From positions 1 to 28,078 of the IMG/VR virus record IMGVR_UViG_3300022074_000289: a DNA stretch of 28,078 nt, one strand, 5' to 3'. A program made the translations under genes and the position numbers. The stretch's first letter is position 1. Each line of letters opens with the position of its first letter. Of this stretch, positions 11,055 through 27,705 are shown one piece after another. The stretch is from a virus. The notes under the pieces were generated by a model, which searched no databases, was not told where the DNA came from, and saw nothing but the letters and a program-made list of their open reading frames with translations.

Positions 11055-12245
11055 TTATCCTGCACTGATTTTGAGCGTTCCGCTATCATTCCATAATCGA
11101 CCAGCAACGGCAGGATCTGATGTGGGAAGGCCGCTGAAGTCAACGTCACCTTTGGCCTCAAGGTCTTGTTCAACAGTTACGTGACCACCGTATTCGATTT
11201 TGAGCGCATCTGTGTTTTGAACCCTCCATCTAAAAGCATATCCGTTGGCAAGGGCAACGACGTTATGGCTAATTCCTGAAAATTGGTAGTTTTTGGAAGC
11301 CTCACCCGATCCAATGTAGGAAACTCTGTCATAAAAATTCCCGTTGCTGTTTTCAACGTCTATGCCGGTGCCGCCGTTGTGCTTGAGAATAATTTTACCA
11401 TCCACATTCAGCGTCCCCGTCCCGCCACCAACGTCAACACTGGCTCCGTTGCTGAGAGAGATGTCTCCTGATAAGTCTAAGTTGTCAGCATAAGCGTCAC
11501 CAAATCGACCCGTCGAAGAGTCACCTATGTCTCTCGCGTTTGAGTCGGACATTAGGTCACCCTTTACAACTAAGCCGGTCGAGTCCATAGTCAGCTTGGC
11601 TACATTGTCGGCAGAAAGTGTCAATTCTTGACCCAGAGCATCAAGTAGCAACTCACCACTGTTGCTTCCGAGCCTAAGAGACTCGGTGGAGACGTTTGAC
11701 CCGTTAGGAGCTATAGCGATAAAAGTTGGTGATGAGATTACTGATCCTGATACTCCGCTACCACTATCAACCTCAAGACCCGCAAAACTGGGCGAGTCCG
11801 TCGTGTCAAGCTCTGCCGCAGCGCGAATCTCTGCTGCTGTGGCCGCATCCAGATTAGATCCATCGCCAAATACAACGCCGTCTATGTCTGTGGGGCTACC
11901 CAAGTTAACCACGGCATCTGATCCGTCAGCACCATCCGCTCCGTCAGAACCGTCAGCGCCATCCGCACCGTCTACACCGTCTGCTCCATCAGCACCATCG
12001 GCTCCCGCTGGCCCCGCTGGCCCCGCAACTCCAGCTGGGCCTTGTATCCCCTGATCACCCTGCGCTCCCGCTGGCCCCGCTGGGCCTTGAGCGCCATCAG
12101 CACCGTCGGCGCCGTTGATTCCGTCAGCACCGTCCGCTCCCGCAGGGCCGACTTGACCCTGCTCACCTTGTGCGCCCTGCGGCCCCGCTGGGCCTTGGGT
12201 GCTGATTTTGACGTGTGATCCTTGATTGTTTATCTTAACTGCCAT
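11055..12245 (-). CDS. Collagen-like tail fibre protein
   Basis: The 396-residue protein has a short N-terminal head (1-17), an unbroken run of 31 G-X-Y triplets (residues 18-110), then a ~285-residue beta-rich fibre domain. The triplets shift from GPA/GPQ types early to almost pure GAD/GSD later. The fibre domain has strand repeats such as LDLSGDISLSNGAS and ends in a short AGRLWNDSGTLKISAG module. Collagen triplets in phage fibres form stiff trimeric rods, so this is probably a trimeric receptor-binding or decoration fibre. The distal domain should carry the ligand-binding or trimerisation function. AAGG lies 7 bases before the ATG. It is the third large adhesion gene in a row and is likely cotranscribed with them. 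Confidence 0.85.
   Translation of the reverse strand: MAVKINNQGSHVKISTQGPAGPQGAQGEQGQVGPAGADGADGINGADGADGAQGPAGPAGAQGDQGIQGPAGVAGPAGPAGADGADGADGVDGADGADGSDGADGADGSDAVVNLGSPTDIDGVVFGDGSNLDAATAAEIRAAAELDTTDSPSFAGLEVDSGSGVSGSVISSPTFIAIAPNGSNVSTESLRLGSNSGELLLDALGQELTLSADNVAKLTMDSTGLVVKGDLMSDSNARDIGDSSTGRFGDAYADNLDLSGDISLSNGASVDVGGGTGTLNVDGKIILKHNGGTGIDVENSNGNFYDRVSYIGSGEASKNYQFSGISHNVVALANGYAFRWRVQNTDALKIEYGGHVTVEQDLEAKGDVDFSGLPTSDPAVAGRLWNDSGTLKISAG
11916..12194 (-). repeat. Collagen G-X-Y coding repeat
   Basis: A 279-base stretch encodes 31 consecutive Gly-X-Y triplets with a 9- and 18-base near-periodicity at DNA level. Such repeats can expand and contract, so fibre length may vary between relatives. 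Confidence 0.85.
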
Positions 12246-13886: not shown

Positions 13887-15506
13887 TTATCTGATGATTG
13901 AAATTAGGGTTGTGAGGGGCTGGATAAGTATCTCGTTGTTACACCTGATGGCGGGAAGCAGTCTAGCATTCCTGTCTTCATCAGACGCTATGTATGCAGA
14001 CATCTCAACCCTATTCAAATAAGCGACACCTTGAGATCCGGTTCCGAAGAATATGGGCTGAGTTGTCAGCGCAAAGGTGAACGTCGGAGCGTCATATTCA
14101 TCCCTAGTCATAAAGATGAGGCCAACCTCAAGTGTAGAGTTAGCAACTTGCGGGACTGCATTAAAGCTAAACCTCACCTTGACCAAGTCACCCACGTTAC
14201 ACTCTGTCAAGTCGTAAGACCCAGTTGCTGCATTGTATTGTAGCGATCCGCTAGTTACTGCGTCTGAGTAGCTACCTGATTGACCTGAGTCATCGAACGA
14301 GTAGTCAACTAGGTTCTCTATACCCTCTGGCATATGAGCGCCACCAAAAAGTCCCTTAGTTTGATCAAAGCTGTCAAAGCTGGACGTAGGGAAGTATGCC
14401 ACATCATTAGCTGCTTGCCTAGCCGCGCTGAAACCAAACCTATACCAAGCTGAGGACGAAGCCATTGCTGCGGTATACTGAGTATTTGAACCTAAGTCAT
14501 TAGCCCCTGACTGCCCAGTGGTTCTATCCACGAATCCCCCTGTAAACTCGTATCCGCTATCACTGCCACTATCGTAGTCGAGTAGTGTGCGGGTAATAGG
14601 ATTACCCGCAGAGTCATATATCTTCGCCATGATGTCGCCGTCATCACCAGCACCAGTGCCGTCAGATTGCCAGATGGCGCTTTTACCGGCCCCCGCAAGG
14701 GCAGGATCAGCGGACTGCTCGTTTAGACTTACGTAGGCTGCCTCCACTGCACCGTCAGTGCTTATGTCGCCATCGACGGTCACATTGCCTGTAGCGGTCA
14801 CATTGTCGCTGTAAATGTCACCAGAAGCCGTTATATCGCCTTGAGAGACGATTGAGCCACTAGCAGTCAAGGTGAAGCCAGAAACGTCTCCAGAGGCCGT
14901 CACGTCGCCAGTAGCGGTAACTGAGCCATCCGTTGAGATGTCACCGTCAGCACTGATCGTCCCGCTGGTCGTAATGTTGGCCGCATCTACGTCTCCCGAA
15001 GTCGTGATGTCTCCCGAAGAAGTTATTGTTCCTGTGGATGCAATGTTGCCTTGAGCGTCAATTTCGCCATTTACGGTAAGTATTCCGTCATCAGCAGAGA
15101 TGGTGGGGTCATCGTCATTAATTACGCCAGCGACCTTGTTTGGGGATGCCATGACCTCCCCTTCAAAAGTCCCCTGCGGCAGTCTCTTTCCGCTAGAGTC
15201 AATGATCCACACGTCGCATACGAGCAGCGCACCCTCGTTCTTAATGCGGCTGCTGACGTTGGTGAGGTCGAAATCAATATCGGTGATGCCGTTTACACCG
15301 TCAGTGTGAGTTGTTTGGCTGGCTTGAACCACAGCTTCAGCGTTAGACTGAGACGTGTCCTCCTTACAAGTGATGACCACCTCGGAACCCGTAAGGTCAA
15401 TAGGGACATCAGGATCGCTGATTTTGTCCTTTGGCTCGATTACCGTGACTCTCTTTGTGGTAATCTCTCCTGCGTAAAGTTTGAAAATATTATCAGAGCA
15501 GCTCAT
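13887..15506 (-). CDS. BppU-like/beta-repeat tail protein
   Basis: The 539-residue product begins with a ~125-residue domain resembling the N-terminus of baseplate upper proteins (a VPIDLTGSEVVITCKED strand pair and GTFEGEV). Residues 141-260 hold about 17 imperfect short repeats of the TSGDIT or ADGDIS type, which should form an elongated beta-solenoid or triple-beta shaft. A ~280-residue C-terminal domain follows and may be the tip. It probably forms a fibre or spike bound to the baseplate, with the repeats acting as spacer. It overlaps the membrane protein gene upstream by one base, so translation is coupled. The architecture is clear; the named family match is tentative. Confidence 0.65.
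   Translation of the reverse strand: MSCSDNIFKLYAGEITTKRVTVIEPKDKISDPDVPIDLTGSEVVITCKEDTSQSNAEAVVQASQTTHTDGVNGITDIDFDLTNVSSRIKNEGALLVCDVWIIDSSGKRLPQGTFEGEVMASPNKVAGVINDDDPTISADDGILTVNGEIDAQGNIASTGTITSSGDITTSGDVDAANITTSGTISADGDISTDGSVTATGDVTASGDVSGFTLTASGSIVSQGDITASGDIYSDNVTATGNVTVDGDISTDGAVEAAYVSLNEQSADPALAGAGKSAIWQSDGTGAGDDGDIMAKIYDSAGNPITRTLLDYDSGSDSGYEFTGGFVDRTTGQSGANDLGSNTQYTAAMASSSAWYRFGFSAARQAANDVAYFPTSSFDSFDQTKGLFGGAHMPEGIENLVDYSFDDSGQSGSYSDAVTSGSLQYNAATGSYDLTECNVGDLVKVRFSFNAVPQVANSTLEVGLIFMTRDEYDAPTFTFALTTQPIFFGTGSQGVAYLNRVEMSAYIASDEDRNARLLPAIRCNNEILIQPLTTLISIIR
14727..15086 (-). repeat. Short beta-repeat coding region
   Basis: It encodes imperfect 6-7 residue repeats (SGDIT, DGDIS, TGNVT types) in the shaft of the tail protein. 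The DNA repeats are diverged rather than identical. Confidence 0.65.
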
Positions 15507-15831: not shown

Positions 15832-16146
15832 TTAGGCTTGCTTAATCTTTCTTATAACCATGCAAAGGTGCAGGGTCGTTAGCGATGTGGCGGAAAACAT
15901 AATAAGTCTCAGTAGATTCTGAAACTCTGGACTCCAAGTGTCAAGAAATCCGAAGTGCGCTGCCGCCGCGAATATCAATGTCCCAGCACCGATGACGCTC
16001 TCGCCCCATAGCTGCCAAGAGATTGCTCTCGATAAACTGCCAGCCCTCTCGCTTAACTCGTCTGCTCGACGGAGAAACTCCTTCGCAGCAAACAGAGACA
16101 GCAAGACCGTCAAGGTTCCTAGCAGTATGATTGTAAGTGTCAACAT
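15832..16146 (-). CDS. Three-helix membrane protein, holin-like
   Basis: The start at 16146 is preferred over 16197 because the product then opens directly with a membrane helix. The 104 residues hold three hydrophobic segments (about 2-20, 50-66 and 78-97), with a charged loop between the first two (KEFLRRADELSERAG) and a basic end (RKIKQA). Size and topology resemble class I holins, but no family is recognised. It is the first gene after the sulfotransferase cassette and the longest intergenic gap of this arm (112 bases), so it may start a new transcription unit. A small palindrome lies just upstream. With the following one-pass protein it forms a membrane pair, possibly holin and antiholin. 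Confidence 0.55.
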   Translation of the reverse strand: MLTLTIILLGTLTVLLSLFAAKEFLRRADELSERAGSLSRAISWQLWGESVIGAGTLIFAAAAHFGFLDTWSPEFQNLLRLIMFSATSLTTLHLCMVIRKIKQA

Positions 16147-16258: not shown

Positions 16259-16858
16259 CTAGCCCCTAAACCATTGATTCGGAAAGCCCAGAAGGTCGTA
16301 ATCCTCTTGGAATCGCCCGTGAATAATCTTGGCGCACTCTTCGTCGTATAGACCCGACAAGTCCGGTGGCTTACTGCTAGAGGCATTTAGCCTCTGAAGC
16401 GGCTCGCACTTTGCGCCCACCTTATCGCAGATGTATGCCCATTCGCTGTCAATATCCTCAAGAAGAAAAATATCATCAACCGCTATATTTCCATCTTTAC
16501 CCTTCCAGTAGAATGAGTGAGCGCCAAGCTCCCTGACCTTAAATAGCGGGAGGTCATTTACGTAGCCCTTAACCCAACCCTTGAAATCAGCGTCATAGGG
16601 GAGCTTGTGGGGGTTGCCATCCTCAAGCCCGTCTCGCCAATAGAAGAACAAGCTCGCAGCCACTTCCAGCGGATTCCTTCTGAATGAAAAGGTGTAGTAT
16701 TCGTCGAATTTCGGCACAACCTCAATTAGCTTATGAATGGGCGCATGATCTAGGTTAGGTATAACGGAAACTCCAGAGCCAATAAACGCTTCTTTGCGCG
16801 ACGTGCCGCCCGTCTTAGGGACGTGAATATCTGCAAATCTGTGAGATGCCGAAACCAT
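16259..16858 (-). CDS. Sulfotransferase 1
   Basis: The 199-residue protein has a PAPS-dependent sulfotransferase layout: a 5'-phosphosulfate loop HVPKTGGTS (residues 12-20) after the first strand, and a 3'-phosphate motif YTFSFRRNP (Arg60, Arg61, Asn62, Pro63) followed by a helix. A VDDIFLLEDID segment near 125-137 corresponds to the family's late core strand and its E-x-L-like motif. It would transfer sulfate from PAPS to a hydroxyl, probably on a carbohydrate. No signal or membrane segment is present, so it works in the cytoplasm. AGGGG lies 7 bases upstream as a possible SD. It follows its paralogue by 13 bases in one operon with the glycosyltransferase. The acceptor is unknown. Confidence 0.8.
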   Translation of the reverse strand: MVSASHRFADIHVPKTGGTSRKEAFIGSGVSVIPNLDHAPIHKLIEVVPKFDEYYTFSFRRNPLEVAASLFFYWRDGLEDGNPHKLPYDADFKGWVKGYVNDLPLFKVRELGAHSFYWKGKDGNIAVDDIFLLEDIDSEWAYICDKVGAKCEPLQRLNASSSKPPDLSGLYDEECAKIIHGRFQEDYDLLGFPNQWFRG

Positions 16859-16871
16859 AATTCAACCCCTG

Positions 16872-17483
16872 CTACCAGCCCTCCCAAGAATCTGGAATAC
16901 CAAGAATCTCAGCATCAAGGGCAAATCTATTCCTAACAATCTCGGCGGTTGTATCATTGTAATACCTCATAAAGGGCTTTGACCTTGGGCTTCTAGATTT
17001 GTTCTTAAAGTCGCCCGCAATATCGCCCCCATGCCTCGCTACCACATCTAGGAACTCGCCCTTCATGTCATCGAAGTCAAGAATGTCATCAACGATAATC
17101 TCGCCGCTTTCATCCTGCCAGTATTTGATGTGATTGGAAAGATGGGGAGAGCTATCAGCAATATTGTTAATCCTCCGAATCCAGCCATTAAAGCCTTTCT
17201 GCATCTTTTTTGGGGCAGGTCTATCATTGGCCCTCGCTTTCTTCATGGAGTGTTCATACCAAGAAACCATAAAATCCAGCGGGTTTCTTCTGAATGAGTA
17301 AGTATAGTGGGATCTGAACTCCTCTTCCCCGATCAATTCGGAGATTTCTGCTGCGGTCAGGTGCGATGATGCCTTTGGCTGTAGCCCGAACCCATCCAGC
17401 CCCCCTAAGTAATCCCTCCTAGAGTTAGTGCCTGTCCTCGGGACGCAGACTTCAATTATCTTTTTATCAGAACAAACGATCAT
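16872..17483 (-). CDS. Sulfotransferase 2, paralogue of its neighbour
   Basis: The 203-residue protein aligns along its whole length with the next gene: CVPRTGTNS (13-21) for the phosphosulfate loop, YTYSFRRNP (60-68) for the 3'-phosphate motif, then FNGWIRR, IIVDDILDFDD and a closing YNDTTAEIVRNRF. The loop differs from the canonical PKTGGTS by K to R, and by TN replacing GT, so PAPS binding may be altered or the enzyme may use a different geometry. The ATGA overlap (4 bases) with the glycosyltransferase gene shows translational coupling. Two sulfotransferases side by side suggest two positions on one glycan, or one working enzyme and one regulatory or decaying copy. Confidence 0.75.
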   Translation of the reverse strand: MIVCSDKKIIEVCVPRTGTNSRRDYLGGLDGFGLQPKASSHLTAAEISELIGEEEFRSHYTYSFRRNPLDFMVSWYEHSMKKARANDRPAPKKMQKGFNGWIRRINNIADSSPHLSNHIKYWQDESGEIIVDDILDFDDMKGEFLDVVARHGGDIAGDFKNKSRSPRSKPFMRYYNDTTAEIVRNRFALDAEILGIPDSWEGW

Positions 17484-18766
17484 AATAATGAAATAGCCTC
17501 TCTAGCTTTGCTGAATGACAACCCTGCAACCCTGTGGATCGATTCATTGTCCCTTGTGAATCTTGGTGTTATCTGGTGGATGTGGACTGATTTGATGTTG
17601 CTAGGTGGCTCACTGGCCCTCCAGATTCCGTGGTTATGCAGGGTGCTGAATACCTGTGTCCGATAACGCTGCGGGATCTTCCCCATGCACCACTGCTCAT
17701 AAAAGCCGCCCACACCCTCACGGTAAAGGTCAATCCAGAACTCAACGAGGTCAGGATTGCTGGTCAGGAAGTATCCAGCATTGTAGAACCCGTCTCGCTC
17801 AACGATGCACTTTCGCTTGCCGTCATATACGTCTGTTATCTTCTTGAAGGGATCATCCCAGTAGAATGGCGACAATACAGCATCACAGTCGGTGAATGTC
17901 TCTGATGGGTCATCGCAAAACACAATATCAGAATCAAGCAGTAAGACACCCTTATCACCAACGCGCTCCACCTCTTGCTTCAGAGCCTTGAGCTTCCACA
18001 TGATCACATCAGGCTTCCAGTAGTCGTCCTGATTGGTGAGGTTCTTAAGCTCCGCCTTGGCTTCCGCCAGCGACTCCGGCGTAAGCGTTGCAAATGCTCT
18101 GACTTCAGCCATATCATAGATACCTTTAAGTCTCTCGACTTCAGCCTCTACAACCGCATCGCAATATATTGATATTGGCTTCCCGCCCGTATGGTATGTC
18201 CATGTGACTAGCAGCGGCTCCAAGTCTGGCAGAACTCCGTGATCCATAGCCACAACAGCACCATTAACGGATAAGGAGTCAGTGGAGCATTCCCGCACCA
18301 CACCTACGCCGTAATGTGATTCAGTTGGGCATCCTTTGATAACCTCGCCCCTGAGAAACGCCTCTTGATCCCCTATAAGGGTGCTGACATCAATCGCGGA
18401 CTCATTGGTGTAGTCAGCAATACTGTGACTGGGTTTCTCTTTTATTCTCAGGGCGGGATCAAACTCAATGGGTATACCGCGAGATTCAGCGGCCTCAGAT
18501 ATGAGCCTAAACAATGGTCGATCCTCGTCCACTGACGACATGGAGTTAACCGCCCCATACAGTTTGAGTGCAAACTCAACAGGGATTACGGCGCAAGAGG
18601 GTGAGTGGATGGTGACGGCCTCGTAGCTATCTCTCTGCGAGATAACGTGGTTCCCGCCGCTTAGGATAACACCATCATGCTTATTCTTGTGGCACAGCAC
18701 TAGAGCTTCGCACACAGACTTTCTCGATCCCTTTCTTAGTATAGTTAATTGGAGGGGGTTTTTCAT
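17480..18766 (-). CDS. Glycosyltransferase, GT-A type, possibly two-domain
   Basis: The C-terminal ~250 residues look like a nucleotide-sugar transferase: LLLDSDIVF with the DxD motif at residues 278-280, FYNAGYFLTSNP (327-338), FWIDLYREG, and a late SVHIHQ (394-398) that could supply the metal-binding His. The N-terminal ~115 residues contain GVILSGGNHVI, HSPSCAVIP and a DEDRPLFRLI...GIPIEFDP pattern like the end of a GT2 domain. That region could be a second, partial transferase or an acceptor-binding domain. It should add sugars to a glycan or protein in the cytoplasm. The start has no SD; a weak TTGCTC-N16-CATTAT lies 7 bases upstream. It leads the operon with both sulfotransferases. Confidence 0.65.
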   Translation of the reverse strand: MKNPLQLTILRKGSRKSVCEALVLCHKNKHDGVILSGGNHVISQRDSYEAVTIHSPSCAVIPVEFALKLYGAVNSMSSVDEDRPLFRLISEAAESRGIPIEFDPALRIKEKPSHSIADYTNESAIDVSTLIGDQEAFLRGEVIKGCPTESHYGVGVVRECSTDSLSVNGAVVAMDHGVLPDLEPLLVTWTYHTGGKPISIYCDAVVEAEVERLKGIYDMAEVRAFATLTPESLAEAKAELKNLTNQDDYWKPDVIMWKLKALKQEVERVGDKGVLLLDSDIVFCDDPSETFTDCDAVLSPFYWDDPFKKITDVYDGKRKCIVERDGFYNAGYFLTSNPDLVEFWIDLYREGVGGFYEQWCMGKIPQRYRTQVFSTLHNHGIWRASEPPSNIKSVHIHQITPRFTRDNESIHRVAGLSFSKAREAISLL

Positions 18767-18785
18767 CGGCTATATAATGCTCTAA

Positions 18786-19715
18786 TCAAGAGCCAGAGCA
18801 AGGCTCTCCGCAATCAGGGTCTGGGTCGCAAGGTTTTGCCATAGTTACAGATTCAGAAGCCTGTATTTCGGGTGAGTTCGACCTCCGGCCCGAGGCGCGA
18901 ATGCCCTGAGACGAACCCCACAGCAAACTTCCGGTGCTTGAGATATTTACAGTAACAGTGCTTCCATTAACCATCGTTTCATTCGCATACATAACACCCA
19001 TAAAGAAAACCTTCACAAACCACAGGGAGGAGGGATTTTCTGTGTCGGTGAGCGTTATGTCTATCGAGGTTAGCTCATAAGGGTGGGGGTTGGCTACTGC
19101 CGACTCATCGCATAACCTACCGCAAGCGTCCGCTCCCAGCGGAAGGCAGCTAGGTATATCATCAATTCTATTAGAGAAGGTTAAGTATGCGGAAGACTTA
19201 CCACTCCTCAACCTCTTGCCACCACCAGCACCAGCACCAGCACCAACACCGCCGCCGCCGCCGCCGCTTGACGAGGTTGATGGGACATAAACTGATGGTG
19301 GCTGCTCCGGTAGAGCGCACTCATCTCCGCAGGGGGTAGAGTTAGGTGAGTCGAGGGGTGGCTGAAACTCAGCCGTCACTTCCCTAGAGTAGTAACCCTC
19401 GATGTAAGACTCGGTAATGCCTTCGCAACTCACATCATTCTCAAAGCAAGCAACGCTAAGAGATGTCCAGTCTTCGCCGTAAAAGTCGTCCTCTGTAAAC
19501 TCATCAGCCGCAACAATCCTGATGCCCAGTGAATCCTCGATGAACCAGATCCCGCCGCTGTAGTGAATCCACCTGTCAGCAACCTGCTCATTATTAACTG
19601 TGACCTCCCACGCCACCCTGCGAATGCGCAAGGGGCGGGTGTCCCGTTGTCTATCAAGAGAAACGCAAACATCCTCCATTGTTGGCCAGTTGGCCACTTT
19701 TGGTATAGTCGCCAT
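18786..19715 (-). CDS. Tail-associated protein with poly-Gly hinge
   Basis: The 309-residue product is not recognised. Residues 1-140 form one acidic beta-rich domain with several Cys. A flexible linker of Ser, then Gly and Ala (about 147-168, SSSGGGGGGVGAGAG) follows, then a second beta-rich domain (170-290) and a Cys- and Pro-rich tail ending CDPDPDCGEPCSGS. A two-domain protein with a flexible hinge, placed between tail proteins, fits a virion component such as a minor tail or decoration protein. The glycosyltransferase operon follows directly, so this protein, rich in Ser, Thr and Asn near the hinge, could be a glycan acceptor; that is speculation. It starts 1 base after the preceding gene's stop without SD. 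Confidence 0.55.
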   Translation of the reverse strand: MATIPKVANWPTMEDVCVSLDRQRDTRPLRIRRVAWEVTVNNEQVADRWIHYSGGIWFIEDSLGIRIVAADEFTEDDFYGEDWTSLSVACFENDVSCEGITESYIEGYYSREVTAEFQPPLDSPNSTPCGDECALPEQPPSVYVPSTSSSGGGGGGVGAGAGAGGGKRLRSGKSSAYLTFSNRIDDIPSCLPLGADACGRLCDESAVANPHPYELTSIDITLTDTENPSSLWFVKVFFMGVMYANETMVNGSTVTVNISSTGSLLWGSSQGIRASGRRSNSPEIQASESVTMAKPCDPDPDCGEPCSGS

Positions 19716-19716
19716 A

Positions 19717-20454
19717 TTACAGTTTCCGGCTCAAGTCAATGTGGAATGGGTTGCACGTCCGAACATTGGTGTCGGGGACTGCCCCGCCCGTGTCTTGCCA
19801 ATATTCAAAAGTAGCATCAGCAATTAGCCTGACATTAGTATTAATGTCTTCGGATTCGTCATCAAGAAAGACGGCCAAGGCAGAATCACTAAACGATACT
19901 CCGCAGCGGTATCTAGTATAGCCTGCGCCTCCACCGATCTTCTGTAATGTTCCGGTCTGAACGTCCACACCTTCCTCGCCCTCAAACTGCTTTACCTTCA
20001 TCTTGAAATTGGACACGGGAATATCCTGTGTGACTCCAGCCTTGCTCAGTGAAAAGGAGATAACGAAATCATCAAACTGCTTGAGTCTGAACTTGTTGAA
20101 TCCAGTCTCTTCATCCACCAGCATCCCAAGACCAGTTATGTCTCCAGTATCCAGATCAAAATCCCACTGAGGTGCTGCGGATGCGTCAAAACTAGCGAAC
20201 TTTACACCAATGGTGATGTCTATGGTTCCAGTGTCGCCTGATGCGTCAGCTTGAATTGTGGCCTTGTAGATTGAACCCGCAGAGTCAAGTGATGGTGATC
20301 CATAAAGCAGCCCCGAGGAGCTTAGCGTCATGCCGCTCGGTAGCGACCCGTCAATCACTGACCACGAAGCTCCTGTGGGGTCAGAGATGAATTGGACAGA
20401 ATAAGACTGCGCCTCCGAGAATGATAGGATTGATGTCTCTGTGTTTATTGTCAT
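19717..20454 (-). CDS. Putative Ig-domain tail protein
   Basis: The 245-residue protein opens with a putative Ig domain (residues 1-85) of He_PIG type, with the signature LPSGMTLSSSGLLYGSP. A ~150-residue beta-rich domain follows, with strands such as FDDFVISFSLSKAG and NFKMKVKQFEGEE and a final EYWQDTGGAVPD segment. The same style of domain is seen in baseplate and fibre-anchor proteins. It is probably a structural tail protein displaying an Ig module. The upstream bases (ACACACATCACA) are CA-rich and lack an SD. It is followed within 1 base by the Gly-hinge protein, so the two are coupled and may form a complex. Confidence 0.6.
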   Translation of the reverse strand: MTINTETSILSFSEAQSYSVQFISDPTGASWSVIDGSLPSGMTLSSSGLLYGSPSLDSAGSIYKATIQADASGDTGTIDITIGVKFASFDASAAPQWDFDLDTGDITGLGMLVDEETGFNKFRLKQFDDFVISFSLSKAGVTQDIPVSNFKMKVKQFEGEEGVDVQTGTLQKIGGGAGYTRYRCGVSFSDSALAVFLDDESEDINTNVRLIADATFEYWQDTGGAVPDTNVRTCNPFHIDLSRKL

Positions 20455-20476: not shown

Positions 20477-22942
20477 TTAATTGATTATAGCCGTTCCTTC
20501 AGCTCTGAGAGCCGTAGAAGTGTCAGAAGCTGCGTCCTCTGAGCCTTGCAGGTCAAGACCCTTAACAGCAACGAATCCCTTTGGATCAGCCTCGTTGTCA
20601 TCCGAGTCGAAACGGGTCAGACGAGCGCGAACAGCAAAGTTAGGTGTCGCTGGTGCTGTCAGTCCGCTCTGTAGTGCGCCGTAGACGCGAGACTGGGGTG
20701 TTATGGTGTCAACACTGTCTACGAGGCTACGAGCCACTCTAGCGCCAAAGCGGTGGACTGTAGACGTAGGTGTGAGGATGATGCGCTGCTCGATCCAAGG
20801 TGTCGTGTCCCAAGTGATTTGTTTGAGGTTCAGACCTGTAGTGGCAGGGTTGCTCTCCTCTTCGTATACGCCCTTCTCAAGCACCAAGACCCACTGTGCG
20901 TCGGCGTTGGAGTTAAGGATGGCTGCCTCGAAAGCGAAACTAAGCTCAAATGTCTTGCGGAGGCGAAGCTGGTTCTCGTTGATGTGAATCGTGAACAGCT
21001 CGCGCTCAAATGCGCTGGGGTAGAAGCTAGTCTCAGATGTGGCGCCGTATTGCTCAACGGAATACCAGAGGCGACCATCGCTGCCTACGTAGCCACCCGG
21101 CTCAAGGATCGTCGAGCGATGACCAAGCCCTCCTGATACGCGAAAGTCAGAGCCAGTGTCATTAGTGTATACTTGGTGATAATGCCCAGAGGCGCTAGGC
21201 AACTTACCACCAACAAGGATGCTGGACAAGTTAAGAACAGAAGCATCGTGGATCGCAGGAAGTAGACCGCGAGCGCGAGGAAGCTCGGTGGTGTTGATCT
21301 CGTTGATCGTGGTCACGTCCTCGACAGCAGTGCGCGATGGGTAGACCTCAAACAACTTAGGCAGAGTCCACTCAGCGACGACACTCTTGTCATCAGAGTC
21401 GTTAAGGCGAAGTGGGTTGCCACCAGCCTGACCCTCAAGGGCTGTGATGCGAATACCGTAGTCATCAAGGATTGCCTGAAGCCCAGTGATGTCGGAGATT
21501 GCGTGAGTGTGCGGGTCGAAGAAGCTAGTAAGCTCAAGACCAAGAACTGTGACGCGCCAGTCATTGCTGGCAACAGCGCCAACCAGAGACGTTACCGTAA
21601 GGGAGTTGCTGTTCGTCTCGGTCACGGAGAAGTCTGTGCCAAGGACGAGTAGATTGCCTGTGGAGATTTGCTTGACGATCACATCGTGAGCATTCACGTC
21701 GAGGTTGTGATCGACCACGAAAGATGTAGCGGAGCCGTTACCGATGGTGTCAGAGTAGTGTAGCTGTCCGTTGCTGACTTGGCTGTAGTCAAAGCCGCCG
21801 TATACCTCGTCAATCGGTGGGCGAAGCCAGTCGATGTTGGCTGCCTCAGCAAGACCGTCCCAGTTGAGGGTGCGGATAAGCGTCACCGTGTCGGAGTAGA
21901 CTTTGCGGTTATATGTGATCGCGCTGTTGTCAGGGTCTTCGATCTCCATCTCGATCTCGAAAGGAAGCTCGATCTGACCGTCCTCAGCGTCACGCATAAG
22001 TGCCGCCAACTCAGCAGTGTTAAAGTCAAGTGTAAAGGTCAGGTAGCCTGAGTCATCGCCAACCACGACTACTTCGATTAGGTCTTGGTCGATTCCAGCC
22101 ATCTCGCCCTCAAAGGAAATGAGAGCCTGACCGTCTAAGCCCTGCTCGACCTTGAAAGTGCCACCCTCATCGGCTAGGGGCGCGAGAGCCTCCTCGATCT
22201 GAGCGACTCCATCTGCGCGAGTCAGCGTGACGGTGTGGATGTTGTTTCGCTTGAGCTGGTAGCCAGCGCGAAAGTCTCTAGGGACGGTGAGGATCTGCAC
22301 CTCTGGGATAACAGTCCCGCCGACAGATGCTTCAGCACCAGCGATCTCCTCGACCACTGAGGGTGCGTCAGGCAGCTTGGTGGAAAGTGTGCTTGTGCTG
22401 GCTACGGGAGCTTGCACCAAGCGCAGGTCGTGTCTCCACTTATTGTTGAAGCGAGAAGCGCGTGAGCGGAGGAAAGAGACGGGGAAAAGGCTGTTCTCGT
22501 CGTAGATAGTAATCTCGGTAGGCTGCGCGTAGCTGGCGAGAGTCTCGTTGTCGAATGTGACGATGTAGCTTTCGTCTAGTAGCTCCACGGTCGCAGCACC
22601 AAGGGCGGTCATCTGCGAGGAGGAGATGGCGTTGATTGCGTCCTGCACCTCTTGTGCAGTCGCGTTGAATGGCAGGTCAGCGGTGGTGTCTGGAGTGCCT
22701 TCGTTGCCGATCTCAAGGTTAAATGAGCCTGACTCTGGTCGAGTGTCGATACGCCCCACGGAAGCGCGGAATGAGTCGATAGTGCGCGTAGCCTCAACGC
22801 TCTGACCCTCAATCTGCTCTGAGAGCCTAAGCCCAAGCGTTAGCTCTGTGCCAAAAGGGAGGTTAGGGAGTTGGATGTCTGAGCCACCAAGCGTTGTGGT
22901 CAGTTGCCCATTTGATAGATCGAGATAACCTTTTGTGTTCAT
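20477..22942 (-). CDS. Large tail/fibre protein
   Basis: At 821 residues this is the largest complete product in the window. It is mostly beta-rich with several repeated domains. Residues ~70-150 include an LPFNATAQEVQDAI unit found in bacterial surface and phage structural proteins. Around residue 475, DPHTHAISDITGLQAIL is the HTHAISDITGLQ motif common in phage tail fibres, followed by a short coiled coil. The C-terminal 300 residues resemble a receptor or particle-tip domain with many aromatics. It is probably the central fibre or tail tip. A perfect TATAAT lies 5 bases before the ATG, but no -35 is visible. No enzymatic motif is seen. Confidence 0.65.
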   Translation of the reverse strand: MNTKGYLDLSNGQLTTTLGGSDIQLPNLPFGTELTLGLRLSEQIEGQSVEATRTIDSFRASVGRIDTRPESGSFNLEIGNEGTPDTTADLPFNATAQEVQDAINAISSSQMTALGAATVELLDESYIVTFDNETLASYAQPTEITIYDENSLFPVSFLRSRASRFNNKWRHDLRLVQAPVASTSTLSTKLPDAPSVVEEIAGAEASVGGTVIPEVQILTVPRDFRAGYQLKRNNIHTVTLTRADGVAQIEEALAPLADEGGTFKVEQGLDGQALISFEGEMAGIDQDLIEVVVVGDDSGYLTFTLDFNTAELAALMRDAEDGQIELPFEIEMEIEDPDNSAITYNRKVYSDTVTLIRTLNWDGLAEAANIDWLRPPIDEVYGGFDYSQVSNGQLHYSDTIGNGSATSFVVDHNLDVNAHDVIVKQISTGNLLVLGTDFSVTETNSNSLTVTSLVGAVASNDWRVTVLGLELTSFFDPHTHAISDITGLQAILDDYGIRITALEGQAGGNPLRLNDSDDKSVVAEWTLPKLFEVYPSRTAVEDVTTINEINTTELPRARGLLPAIHDASVLNLSSILVGGKLPSASGHYHQVYTNDTGSDFRVSGGLGHRSTILEPGGYVGSDGRLWYSVEQYGATSETSFYPSAFERELFTIHINENQLRLRKTFELSFAFEAAILNSNADAQWVLVLEKGVYEEESNPATTGLNLKQITWDTTPWIEQRIILTPTSTVHRFGARVARSLVDSVDTITPQSRVYGALQSGLTAPATPNFAVRARLTRFDSDDNEADPKGFVAVKGLDLQGSEDAASDTSTALRAEGTAIIN

Positions 22943-25887: not shown

Positions 25888-27705
25888 TTAAGCGAAAGCC
25901 CCAAGAGCAGAACCATTTAAACCTATAGAGCCATCATCGGCTAGTGGTGCTGTGTTGTCAGCTATTTTACCAAGATGACCTATCATCCTCTCCCTTTGAT
26001 CATTGGCCTTCTGCGCCTCTATTGCAATAACGGCGAAAGCGTTGCGACCCATGAGGGCGTTGTTCATCTGATCCACTCTACCGTTAAGGGCGAAGCCGCC
26101 GCCAGTGGCAGCACCAAGTGGGTTTTTAGGATCTTCCTCCGCAGGGTCAAGCTCAACCTGTTCCGGCTTTGGTCTTGGCTGCAACCCGTCAAGTATCTCT
26201 TGAAGCCTCTCTCGCATCGCTCTTGATCCAGCAACATCAAGCCCCGTCTGAGGGTCGTTGAGGTTGCTCATAAAATCCTTTAACTGGTCGCCCCAGTATT
26301 GGTTGAACTCATCGGCCCTAGCGTCAAACTCCCTCTCGTAAGCCTCTCTGTGGCTCAGTGAATCGGCACCCATCTGGTCAGCACTAATACCCATAGCATC
26401 TGATGAGTTTTGTAACTTGTCGCTAAGTCCGAATCTTTTAAGAAACGGTATTATCTCTTCCAGCTTTCTTACAAACGAGGCCGCAATACCCTGCAAGGCG
26501 GAACCCAAATGAACTATCCAGCTAGCAACACCCTTCCACAGAGCATCCCCGAAGTTAGCGTCAGCGAATACTGTGAATAGTAGGTTTGCAAGACTGTGAA
26601 CTAGACCCATCAACTGAACTCCAAGCGCAGAAAAGGCAACAATGACACCCCTTACTAAGCCGTTAGCGAATGATGCCAGTGCGTAATCCACGAAAGCATC
26701 CCACGCTAGTTTGAATCCATTTAAAGATTCTGACATCTTAGCTACGGGGTCTGTAAAGTTCTCTAATTTAGATATAACCGCAGCTATCTTCTTACCGAGA
26801 TCAGGAGCCTCTGCGATCATGCGCTCCAATATAGCAAGCACGTCGTCCATGATGGGCATTAGCGCCTCAATGATTGGCTCTCCAAACCGCTTGAGGAACT
26901 CGCCCCAAGTGGCCTTCATTCTGCCAACCTTACCTTGGAAGGTGGTAGCCATCTTATCAGCACCGCCAGCGAAGTCTTTCAACGGGCCTTTGCCCTTGGC
27001 TACGTCCGTGAACAAGCCAAGCACAACGTCCGCACTAACCTTGCCCTCTTGAATCATCTTGTTCAACTCGGCTCCGGTTACACCCAGTTGCTCCTCAAGA
27101 GCCTTGAAGATTGGGATACCTTTCTCAGCAATCTGCTGTCTCAATTCCTCCATCGAGCCAACGCCCTTGGCGGCCACCTGAGACAACGCAACACCCAACA
27201 GCTTCATGTCAGTGTTGGTCATGCCCACAGCACCACCAACGTCAAGGATACCCTTGTTAAGCTCCATTGCTTTCTCAGGGGAGAATCCGAACGCCATAAA
27301 CTTGCCCACGTTGCCAGCCATAGCCTCAAACGTGATACCAGTCCTCATAGCTGTCTGCCTGAGCTGCGTTAGAACCTGTTTACTCTTTTCCGCATCGCCA
27401 GTCAGGATGTTAAAGCGCATTTCTGCTGCCTCAATCTGCCCAGCCTCTTGCGTAGACCTCTGGATAACCCTAGCGAATACTGCTCCCGCAGCGGCAGCGG
27501 CTACAGCCATCGTCTTTACGATATTTGAAGCTATCTGCGTCATGGCTACAGCAACACCGCCTTTCAGACCCTTGCCCAAGGCTTTGCCGCCAGACCTGCC
27601 GCCTCTTTGCCCCATCGCCTTAGCTCTCCGCTCGGCCCTATTGAGCTGTGCGGTGAACTTTTTAATGTTGAGGTTTAACTCTGCGACAAGTGCCTTATTA
27701 GCCAT
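25888..27705 (-). CDS. Tape measure protein
   Basis: The 605-residue protein carries the tape-measure N-terminal module (about 90-290): AEMRFNILTGD, GFSPEKAMELNKGI, ALSQVAAKGVGSMEELRQQIAEKGIP, then a GVTGAELNKMIQEGKVSADVVLG stretch. An upstream basic region (residues 25-50) and a hydrophobic Ala/Val-rich segment (50-80) precede it. A second hydrophobic region lies near 330-420 and a helical C-terminus follows. The protein sets tail length and scaffolds tail tube assembly. 605 residues at about 0.15 nm each predicts a tail near 90 nm, short for a siphovirus. No SD is visible; a TTGACA near the start is at the wrong distance to serve as its promoter. It reads into the tail proteins listed below it. 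Confidence 0.93.
   Translation of the reverse strand: MANKALVAELNLNIKKFTAQLNRAERRAKAMGQRGGRSGGKALGKGLKGGVAVAMTQIASNIVKTMAVAAAAAGAVFARVIQRSTQEAGQIEAAEMRFNILTGDAEKSKQVLTQLRQTAMRTGITFEAMAGNVGKFMAFGFSPEKAMELNKGILDVGGAVGMTNTDMKLLGVALSQVAAKGVGSMEELRQQIAEKGIPIFKALEEQLGVTGAELNKMIQEGKVSADVVLGLFTDVAKGKGPLKDFAGGADKMATTFQGKVGRMKATWGEFLKRFGEPIIEALMPIMDDVLAILERMIAEAPDLGKKIAAVISKLENFTDPVAKMSESLNGFKLAWDAFVDYALASFANGLVRGVIVAFSALGVQLMGLVHSLANLLFTVFADANFGDALWKGVASWIVHLGSALQGIAASFVRKLEEIIPFLKRFGLSDKLQNSSDAMGISADQMGADSLSHREAYEREFDARADEFNQYWGDQLKDFMSNLNDPQTGLDVAGSRAMRERLQEILDGLQPRPKPEQVELDPAEEDPKNPLGAATGGGFALNGRVDQMNNALMGRNAFAVIAIEAQKANDQRERMIGHLGKIADNTAPLADDGSIGLNGSALGAFA

Follow-up and report, generated by a model that had tools for sequence, protein, structure and literature searches.

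A putative glycosyltransferase and sulfotransferase-family cassette, exchanged together with tail genes in an uncultured marine-type phage

The locus lies on an IMG/VR virus contig of 28,078 bases (the whole stretch analyzed, hereafter the window), which belongs to an uncultured, marine-type tailed phage. Three real ORFs follow each other on its - strand: a putative GT-A type glycosyltransferase of 428 aa (17480-18766), and the tandem paralogs ST1 (203 aa; 16872-17483) and ST2 (199 aa; 16259-16858), the latter being of the Sulfotransfer_2 type. The tight coupling of the three genes reported in an earlier note on this DNA is borne out, with the glycosyltransferase-ST1 junction formed by an ATGA (a 4-base overlap) and ST1 separated from ST2 by a gap of 13 bases. 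Their coding nature is certain, as their products share 76, 64 and 74% amino acid identity, respectively, with those of a distant phage. The identities at the three codon positions in this comparison (approximately 0.75/0.85/0.42, with saturated synonymous sites) indicate purifying selection on all three genes alike.

In the order of transcription, the cassette is preceded by the tape measure protein (TMP_3, 25888-27705; PF20155, 100 bits), several unmatched proteins, an 821-aa tail-module protein (20477-22942, - strand), a 245-aa protein with the Ig-like He_PIG domain (19717-20454, - strand; PF05345, 33.7 bits, above the cut-off) and a Gly-rich protein of 309 aa (18786-19715, - strand). It is followed by two small ORFs, a FapA/bactofilin-like repeat fiber, a LamG/PKD protein, a collagen-type fiber and an amidase endolysin. 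Hence, the claimed placement between structural tail genes also stands, with the two small ORFs intervening before the LamG and collagen fiber genes. The slot that holds the cassette is bounded upstream by the 821-aa protein, a conserved backbone gene with homologs in the records designated L020, L003/L021, L022 and L023, and downstream by a small conserved gene (15832-16146, - strand; probable ATG start at 16146) that shows 61% identity in L020. Replication and recombination genes fill the + strand half of the window. Among these, the segment 1693-2262 matches tail-lysozyme/baseplate-hub PHROGs (E 2e-11). The fiber at 13887-15506 has repeats that look like the beta solenoids of FapA/bactofilin (PF03961; E 7e-7, slightly short of the cut-off). 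As to the host, the matches of the backbone proteins and ST2 lean to Alphaproteobacteria, but are weak. A genome scan recovered no relatives of the tail backbone; the Rhodobacter phage matches to the 821-aa protein were dropped, as they are sited in replication regions.

ST2 is the sole gene of the three for which an identification as a PAPS sulfotransferase is well supported by motifs, profile matches and predicted structure. It matches PHROG 3347, labeled galactose-3-O-sulfotransferase, with E 6e-10, and spans the whole profile of Sulfotransfer_2 (PF03567), though at 12.3 bits it does not reach the Pfam cut-off of 22. Both PAPS-binding elements are present: the 5'-phosphosulfate loop (5'-PSB), with the pattern PK(T/S)G.(T/S), as HVPKTGGTS at residues 12-20, and the R..S element of the 3'-phosphate site (3'-PB) as R61 and S69, along with the conserved H38. 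Across an alignment of 43 sequences R61 and S69 are invariant, H38 is kept in 42 (ST1 included), and 41 sequences keep H12, K15 and G18 in the 5'-phosphosulfate loop, the exceptions being the two copies of ST1. The AF2 model built from this alignment is very confident (pLDDT 94.7, pTM 0.89) and has the sulfotransferase fold. Structure prediction, proposed in the earlier note as a check, thus bore out the fold of ST2; for the 428-aa protein it gave a pLDDT of 32.5. Structure comparison (VIA) returned heparan sulfate 2-O-sulfotransferase as the best match to the ST2 model (Z 11.1, rmsd 3.8, 182 residues), many PAP-bound sulfotransferases matched it at Z 9-11 over 174-183 residues, and SULT7A1 scored Z 10.3; these values do not tell carbohydrate sulfotransferases from others for this predicted structure. 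Foldseek alone gave marginal matches in the PDB (best E 1.1e-3), and viral sulfotransferases in BFVD matched with E values down to 4e-9, including those of Ralstonia phage RSL1 and Roseobacter phage SIO1 (gp5.1). A genome scan with ST2 yielded 79 loci. The full-length cellular homologs are annotated as sulfotransferase family 2, lie on alphaproteobacterial plasmids and show 22-28% identity to ST2; some of the cellular relatives occur near polysaccharide genes, and one adjoins cysN. In the latter case, on a Neorhizobium petrolearium plasmid (L031:1-2609), the sulfotransferase family 2 gene directly follows cysN, a sulfate-activation gene.

The presence of two PAPS-type sulfotransferases, as originally claimed, thus holds for ST2 and is not established for ST1. 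The two are homologous (27% identity, E 1e-22), and ST1 matches PHROG 3347 with E 1e-4; against Pfam PF00685 it scores 17.7 bits, under the cut-off of 22. Its 3'-phosphate site is kept (RRNPLDFMVS), and the 5'-phosphosulfate loop is degenerate, reading VPRTGTNS in the window and VPHTGSNS in the relative. Here, H12 is replaced by C or S, the conserved lysine K15 by R or H, and G18 by T or S, in the window and the relative respectively. Because of this degenerate loop, the use of PAPS by ST1 appears doubtful; it may not be catalytic, and is possibly a pseudo-enzyme or a partner subunit. ST1 is under purifying selection (dN 0.30, dS saturated). An origin of ST1 by recent duplication can be ruled out, given that the copies are only 27% identical and that both phages have both of them.

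The 428-aa protein had been described as a DxD glycosyltransferase, and the motif is indeed present: DSD at residues 278-280 follows a hydrophobic strand in the segment VLLLDSDIVF, which is invariant in the relative, where the protein is 76% identical. This segment and a second one, GFYNAGY (residues 326-332), are features that we take to be typical of GT-A enzymes. Nevertheless, the protein has no match to a glycosyltransferase family in Pfam, PHROGs or NCBIfam or to a structure in the PDB, and its model, derived from 3 sequences, offers no usable fold. Searches of plasmids, phage isolates and about 680 genomes (385 from the class to which a Ruegeria genome belongs, and 292 from the phylum of a Synechococcus genome) gave no convincing homologs; four weak matches proved chance-like on inspection. 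In L020, L022 and L023, this position is taken by genes for recognized glycosyltransferases; a weak profile comparison (with only three query sequences) revealed no similarity of the 428-aa protein to the GT8 and GT2 enzymes of these phages. Based on its motif and position, we infer that the protein is a glycosyltransferase.

Two further IMG/VR contigs (74,020 and 36,467 bases; 99.99-100% identical in their overlap) hold the same cassette genes in the distant phage mentioned above. Contiguous DNA homology between this phage and the window is confined to a block of 4.2 kb (16292-20454; 69% identity), which opens at the He_PIG start codon, runs to where ST2 ends and in both phages has the order He_PIG, Gly-rich protein, glycosyltransferase, ST1, ST2. 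The five shared proteins are 63-82% identical, with the He_PIG protein at 82% and the Gly-rich protein at 66%. Beyond the block, identity falls to 39-50% in the 821-aa protein and to 25-31% in the next three tail-module proteins, and protein comparison detected no counterpart of the tape measure protein or the endolysin in the distant phage. By these comparisons, the module is a transferred unit, in which the enzymes travel with the two tail-type proteins encoded just upstream of them. The saturation of third codon positions shows that this transfer is old and that selection has maintained the genes since. The genome of the distant phage, of about 74 kb, is probably circular or circularly permuted, because the larger contig both begins and ends within the Gly-rich gene, and the 36-kb contig spans the junction (L010:1-458 and L013:18562-18984, IMGVR_UViG_3300017748_000003). 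The search of related phages for the three-gene unit, a check that the earlier note had proposed, recovered the same unit in a distant phage, while other enzymes occupy the slots of L020, L022 and L023.

We compared the slot across five records, which display four cassette types. L020 is the closest relative in terms of the backbone: its tail-module proteins show 62-80% identity, its endolysin shows 72%, and a nuclease gene reaches 87%. Its slot holds a He_PIG-like protein of 533 aa, another protein of 289 aa, a GT4 glycosyltransferase (PF13692, E 7e-8) and a sulfotransferase-like protein of 198 aa from a different family (Sulfotransfer_3/1, under the cut-off; motifs GRSGSTW and RDPRRVVTS). 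The exchange relative to L020 includes the C-terminal ~320 residues of the 821-aa protein (20477-21442, - strand), identity dropping from 76-96% over residues 1-500 to 41-60% over residues 501-821. Past the stop codon of L020's own sulfotransferase, at L020:16651-16698, lies a short remnant of the ST2 3' terminus: its interrupted translation, F*EDYDLLGVPNRW, is identical to the ST2 sequence FQEDYDLLGFPNQW at 11 of 16 residues, and it scores 65, whereas none of 1000 shuffles scored above 42. This relic is a scar left by cassette replacement. Together, the relic and the exchanged slot indicate that cassettes have been replaced in this phage lineage. In a second pair, L022 and L023, the upstream tail-module proteins are 65-85% and the two small downstream genes 75-85% identical; the slot of one holds a GT8 glycosyltransferase and a 333-aa protein, and that of the other a GT2 glycosyltransferase and a methyltransferase, with no detectable homology between the two enzyme sets. 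Here, the divergence starts inside the preceding, second He_PIG protein; thus, as at residue ~500 of the 821-aa protein, the breakpoint of the exchange is located inside a tail-protein gene. Each of the five records has a He_PIG gene immediately ahead of its cassette region. Neither the He_PIG protein of L023 nor the sulfotransferase of L020 had a match among phage isolates. The Gly-rich protein (residues 28-85, window 19461-19634) has a W..W.Y..G.W..DW segment in common with L020:14354-14515 (hhalign E 0.0014, with a probability of only 18%), the proteins being otherwise different; the L020 segment overlaps a weak Tad2-like match (PF11195, E 0.22).

Considering these observations, we think it reasonably probable that this is a polymorphic cassette whose enzymes add glycans to tail proteins of the virion. 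A phage glycosyltransferase located with virion protein genes, the association expected of virion glycosylation, is found here, the glycosyltransferase itself being recognized by motif only. Moreover, if the enzymes act on tail proteins, one would expect them to be exchanged jointly with the ends of those proteins. We infer that a virion protein is the substrate; because the enzymes travel and are exchanged with the tail-protein genes, the sequence comparisons point to the He_PIG and Gly-rich proteins (18786-20454) as likelier substrates than the collagen fiber. The He_PIG protein, whose L022 homolog matches a tail-protein PHROG, is probably a tail protein and a candidate substrate. Hence, of the options raised in the earlier note, the best supported is a virion that carries a sulfated glycan, given the unit's linkage to and joint exchange with tail genes, but the collagen fiber (11055-12245) as its specific target is weak: among the related records only L023 has a match to it, which is weak and partial.

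Accordingly framed, the pathway might run as follows. Late in infection, the putative glycosyltransferase would take a sugar from a nucleotide-sugar of the host and attach it to the He_PIG protein and/or the Gly-rich protein, which are co-expressed with it, or, alternatively, to a sugar already present on the tail protein. ST2 would next add to this glycan a sulfuryl group taken from host PAPS, with ST1 acting as a partner, a specificity subunit or an altered enzyme. Both donors must come from the host, because none of the records yielded an APS kinase gene and no gene for nucleotide-sugar synthesis or the like was noticed around the cassette. The outcome would be virions with a charged, phage-specific tail coat, which might play a role in adsorption or shielding. 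In related phages, other glycosyltransferase combinations take the place of the whole cassette and the neighboring tail-protein ends. More tentatively, the lineage as a whole could vary its tail-surface chemistry through the exchange of entire glycan cassettes, namely a glycosyltransferase with sulfotransferases, GT4 with an unrelated sulfotransferase, GT8 with a second enzyme or GT2 with a methyltransferase, along with the glycan-carrying Ig-like tail protein. This possibility, to which we give somewhat less than even credence, would amount to a serotype-like polymorphism of the virion, with sulfation among the modifications.

The main rival explanation is that the enzymes modify the lipopolysaccharide or capsule of the host envelope during infection, either to block rival phages or to free the progeny from receptor-bearing debris. 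The nearest cellular relatives of ST2 indeed lie in surface-polysaccharide surroundings: that of Sagittula near rfbC and a glycosyltransferase, that of Rhodobacteraceae S2214 near an LPS biosynthesis gene, a GT4 and a methyltransferase, and that of Rhodovulum near a glycosyltransferase. Further, serotype conversion driven by phage glycosyltransferases is established, as cited in PMC12619734. However, serotype conversion is a feature of temperate phages, and none of the five records has a match to the integrase domain (PF00589); four of them, the window included, are fragments, and the near-complete 74-kb relative also lacks it. The cassette is, moreover, coupled to tail genes, with breakpoints within those genes, and no flippase-type gene was noticed adjoining it. 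Hence, we regard an action on the host envelope as unlikely.

A different objection to virion decoration comes from the slot itself, since the site between the tail genes and the two small ORFs, followed by fiber and lysis genes, is one where phages also gather unrelated extra genes. The end of the tail module might then merely be a tolerant insertion site for morons or auxiliary genes with assorted cargo, in line with the usual classification of phage sulfotransferases as auxiliary metabolic genes whose role is termed unclear (PMC10580990; PMC8290583). Against this, all four slot occupants contain a glycosyltransferase or a glycosyltransferase-like gene, mostly with sugar-decorating partners, and none holds plainly unrelated cargo; two structural genes move with the enzymes, and the exchange breakpoints lie within structural genes. 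These features render such a hotspot quite improbable as the explanation. Least probable is a direct sulfation of tail-protein tyrosines by ST2, with the 428-aa protein not being a glycosyltransferase: the absence of family or PDB matches to that protein and the failure of the fold scores (Z 11.1 for heparan sulfate 2-O-sulfotransferase as against 10.3 for SULT7A1) to separate the classes would accommodate it, but the conservation in the relative of the DSD motif in its hydrophobic strand and the recognized glycosyltransferases that take its place in L020, L022 and L023 speak against it.

Decoration of the virion by phage-encoded glycosyltransferases has a precedent in the mycobacteriophages, where the capsid and tail-tube subunits of Che8 and its relatives bear glycans at their C-termini (Freeman et al. 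2023, as cited in PMC12619734 and PMC11256854). While the products in that system are glycans on virion proteins, the present one is known from genes alone. It also differs in that sulfotransferases, or a methyltransferase, accompany the glycosyltransferase, in that the candidate substrates are He_PIG and Gly-rich tail proteins, and in that cassette and tail-protein ends are exchanged en bloc; relative to mycobacteriophage glycosylation, the novelty thus lies in sulfation, in swapping and in joint inheritance with tail proteins. The gtr-type serotype-conversion genes of temperate phages similarly comprise phage glycosyltransferases that modify a surface glycan; in contrast, we found here no integrase, noticed no gtr-type membrane genes and observed a coupling to tail genes instead. 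The bacterial sulfotransferases of family 2 on Sagittula, Rhodovulum and Neorhizobium plasmids, situated in surface-polysaccharide or sulfate-activation loci, are full-length homologs of ST2 with the same PAPS motifs, but are distant in sequence and have a cellular context rather than that of a virion module.

Sulfotransferase genes are themselves known from phages, with their function stated as unclear (PMC10580990). Those of PHROG 3347, the Sulfotransfer_3 proteins of OM43 phages and cyanophages, and the proteins of RSL1 and SIO1 share the fold of the ST2 model, yet none was seen in a unit of a glycosyltransferase and tandem sulfotransferases that moves with tail proteins. A tblastn search of phage isolate records with the glycosyltransferase, ST1 and ST2 gave no match, and a limited literature search found no description of a glycosyltransferase-sulfotransferase unit that moves with tail genes. 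A sulfotransferase fixed in a unit with tail genes, together with the swapping of that unit in relatives, points to the virion as the substrate of such an enzyme. If this is true, sulfated or methylated glycans of the virion would be a variable trait, like the serotypes of bacteria, and could affect adsorption, particle stability and recognition. In Roseobacter phage SIO1 the gp5.1 gene sits after the tail-fiber genes. Its product (L112:4688-5254) is without an annotated function, has a BFVD predicted structure that matches the ST2 model and displays a degenerate loop, VPKTATIA.
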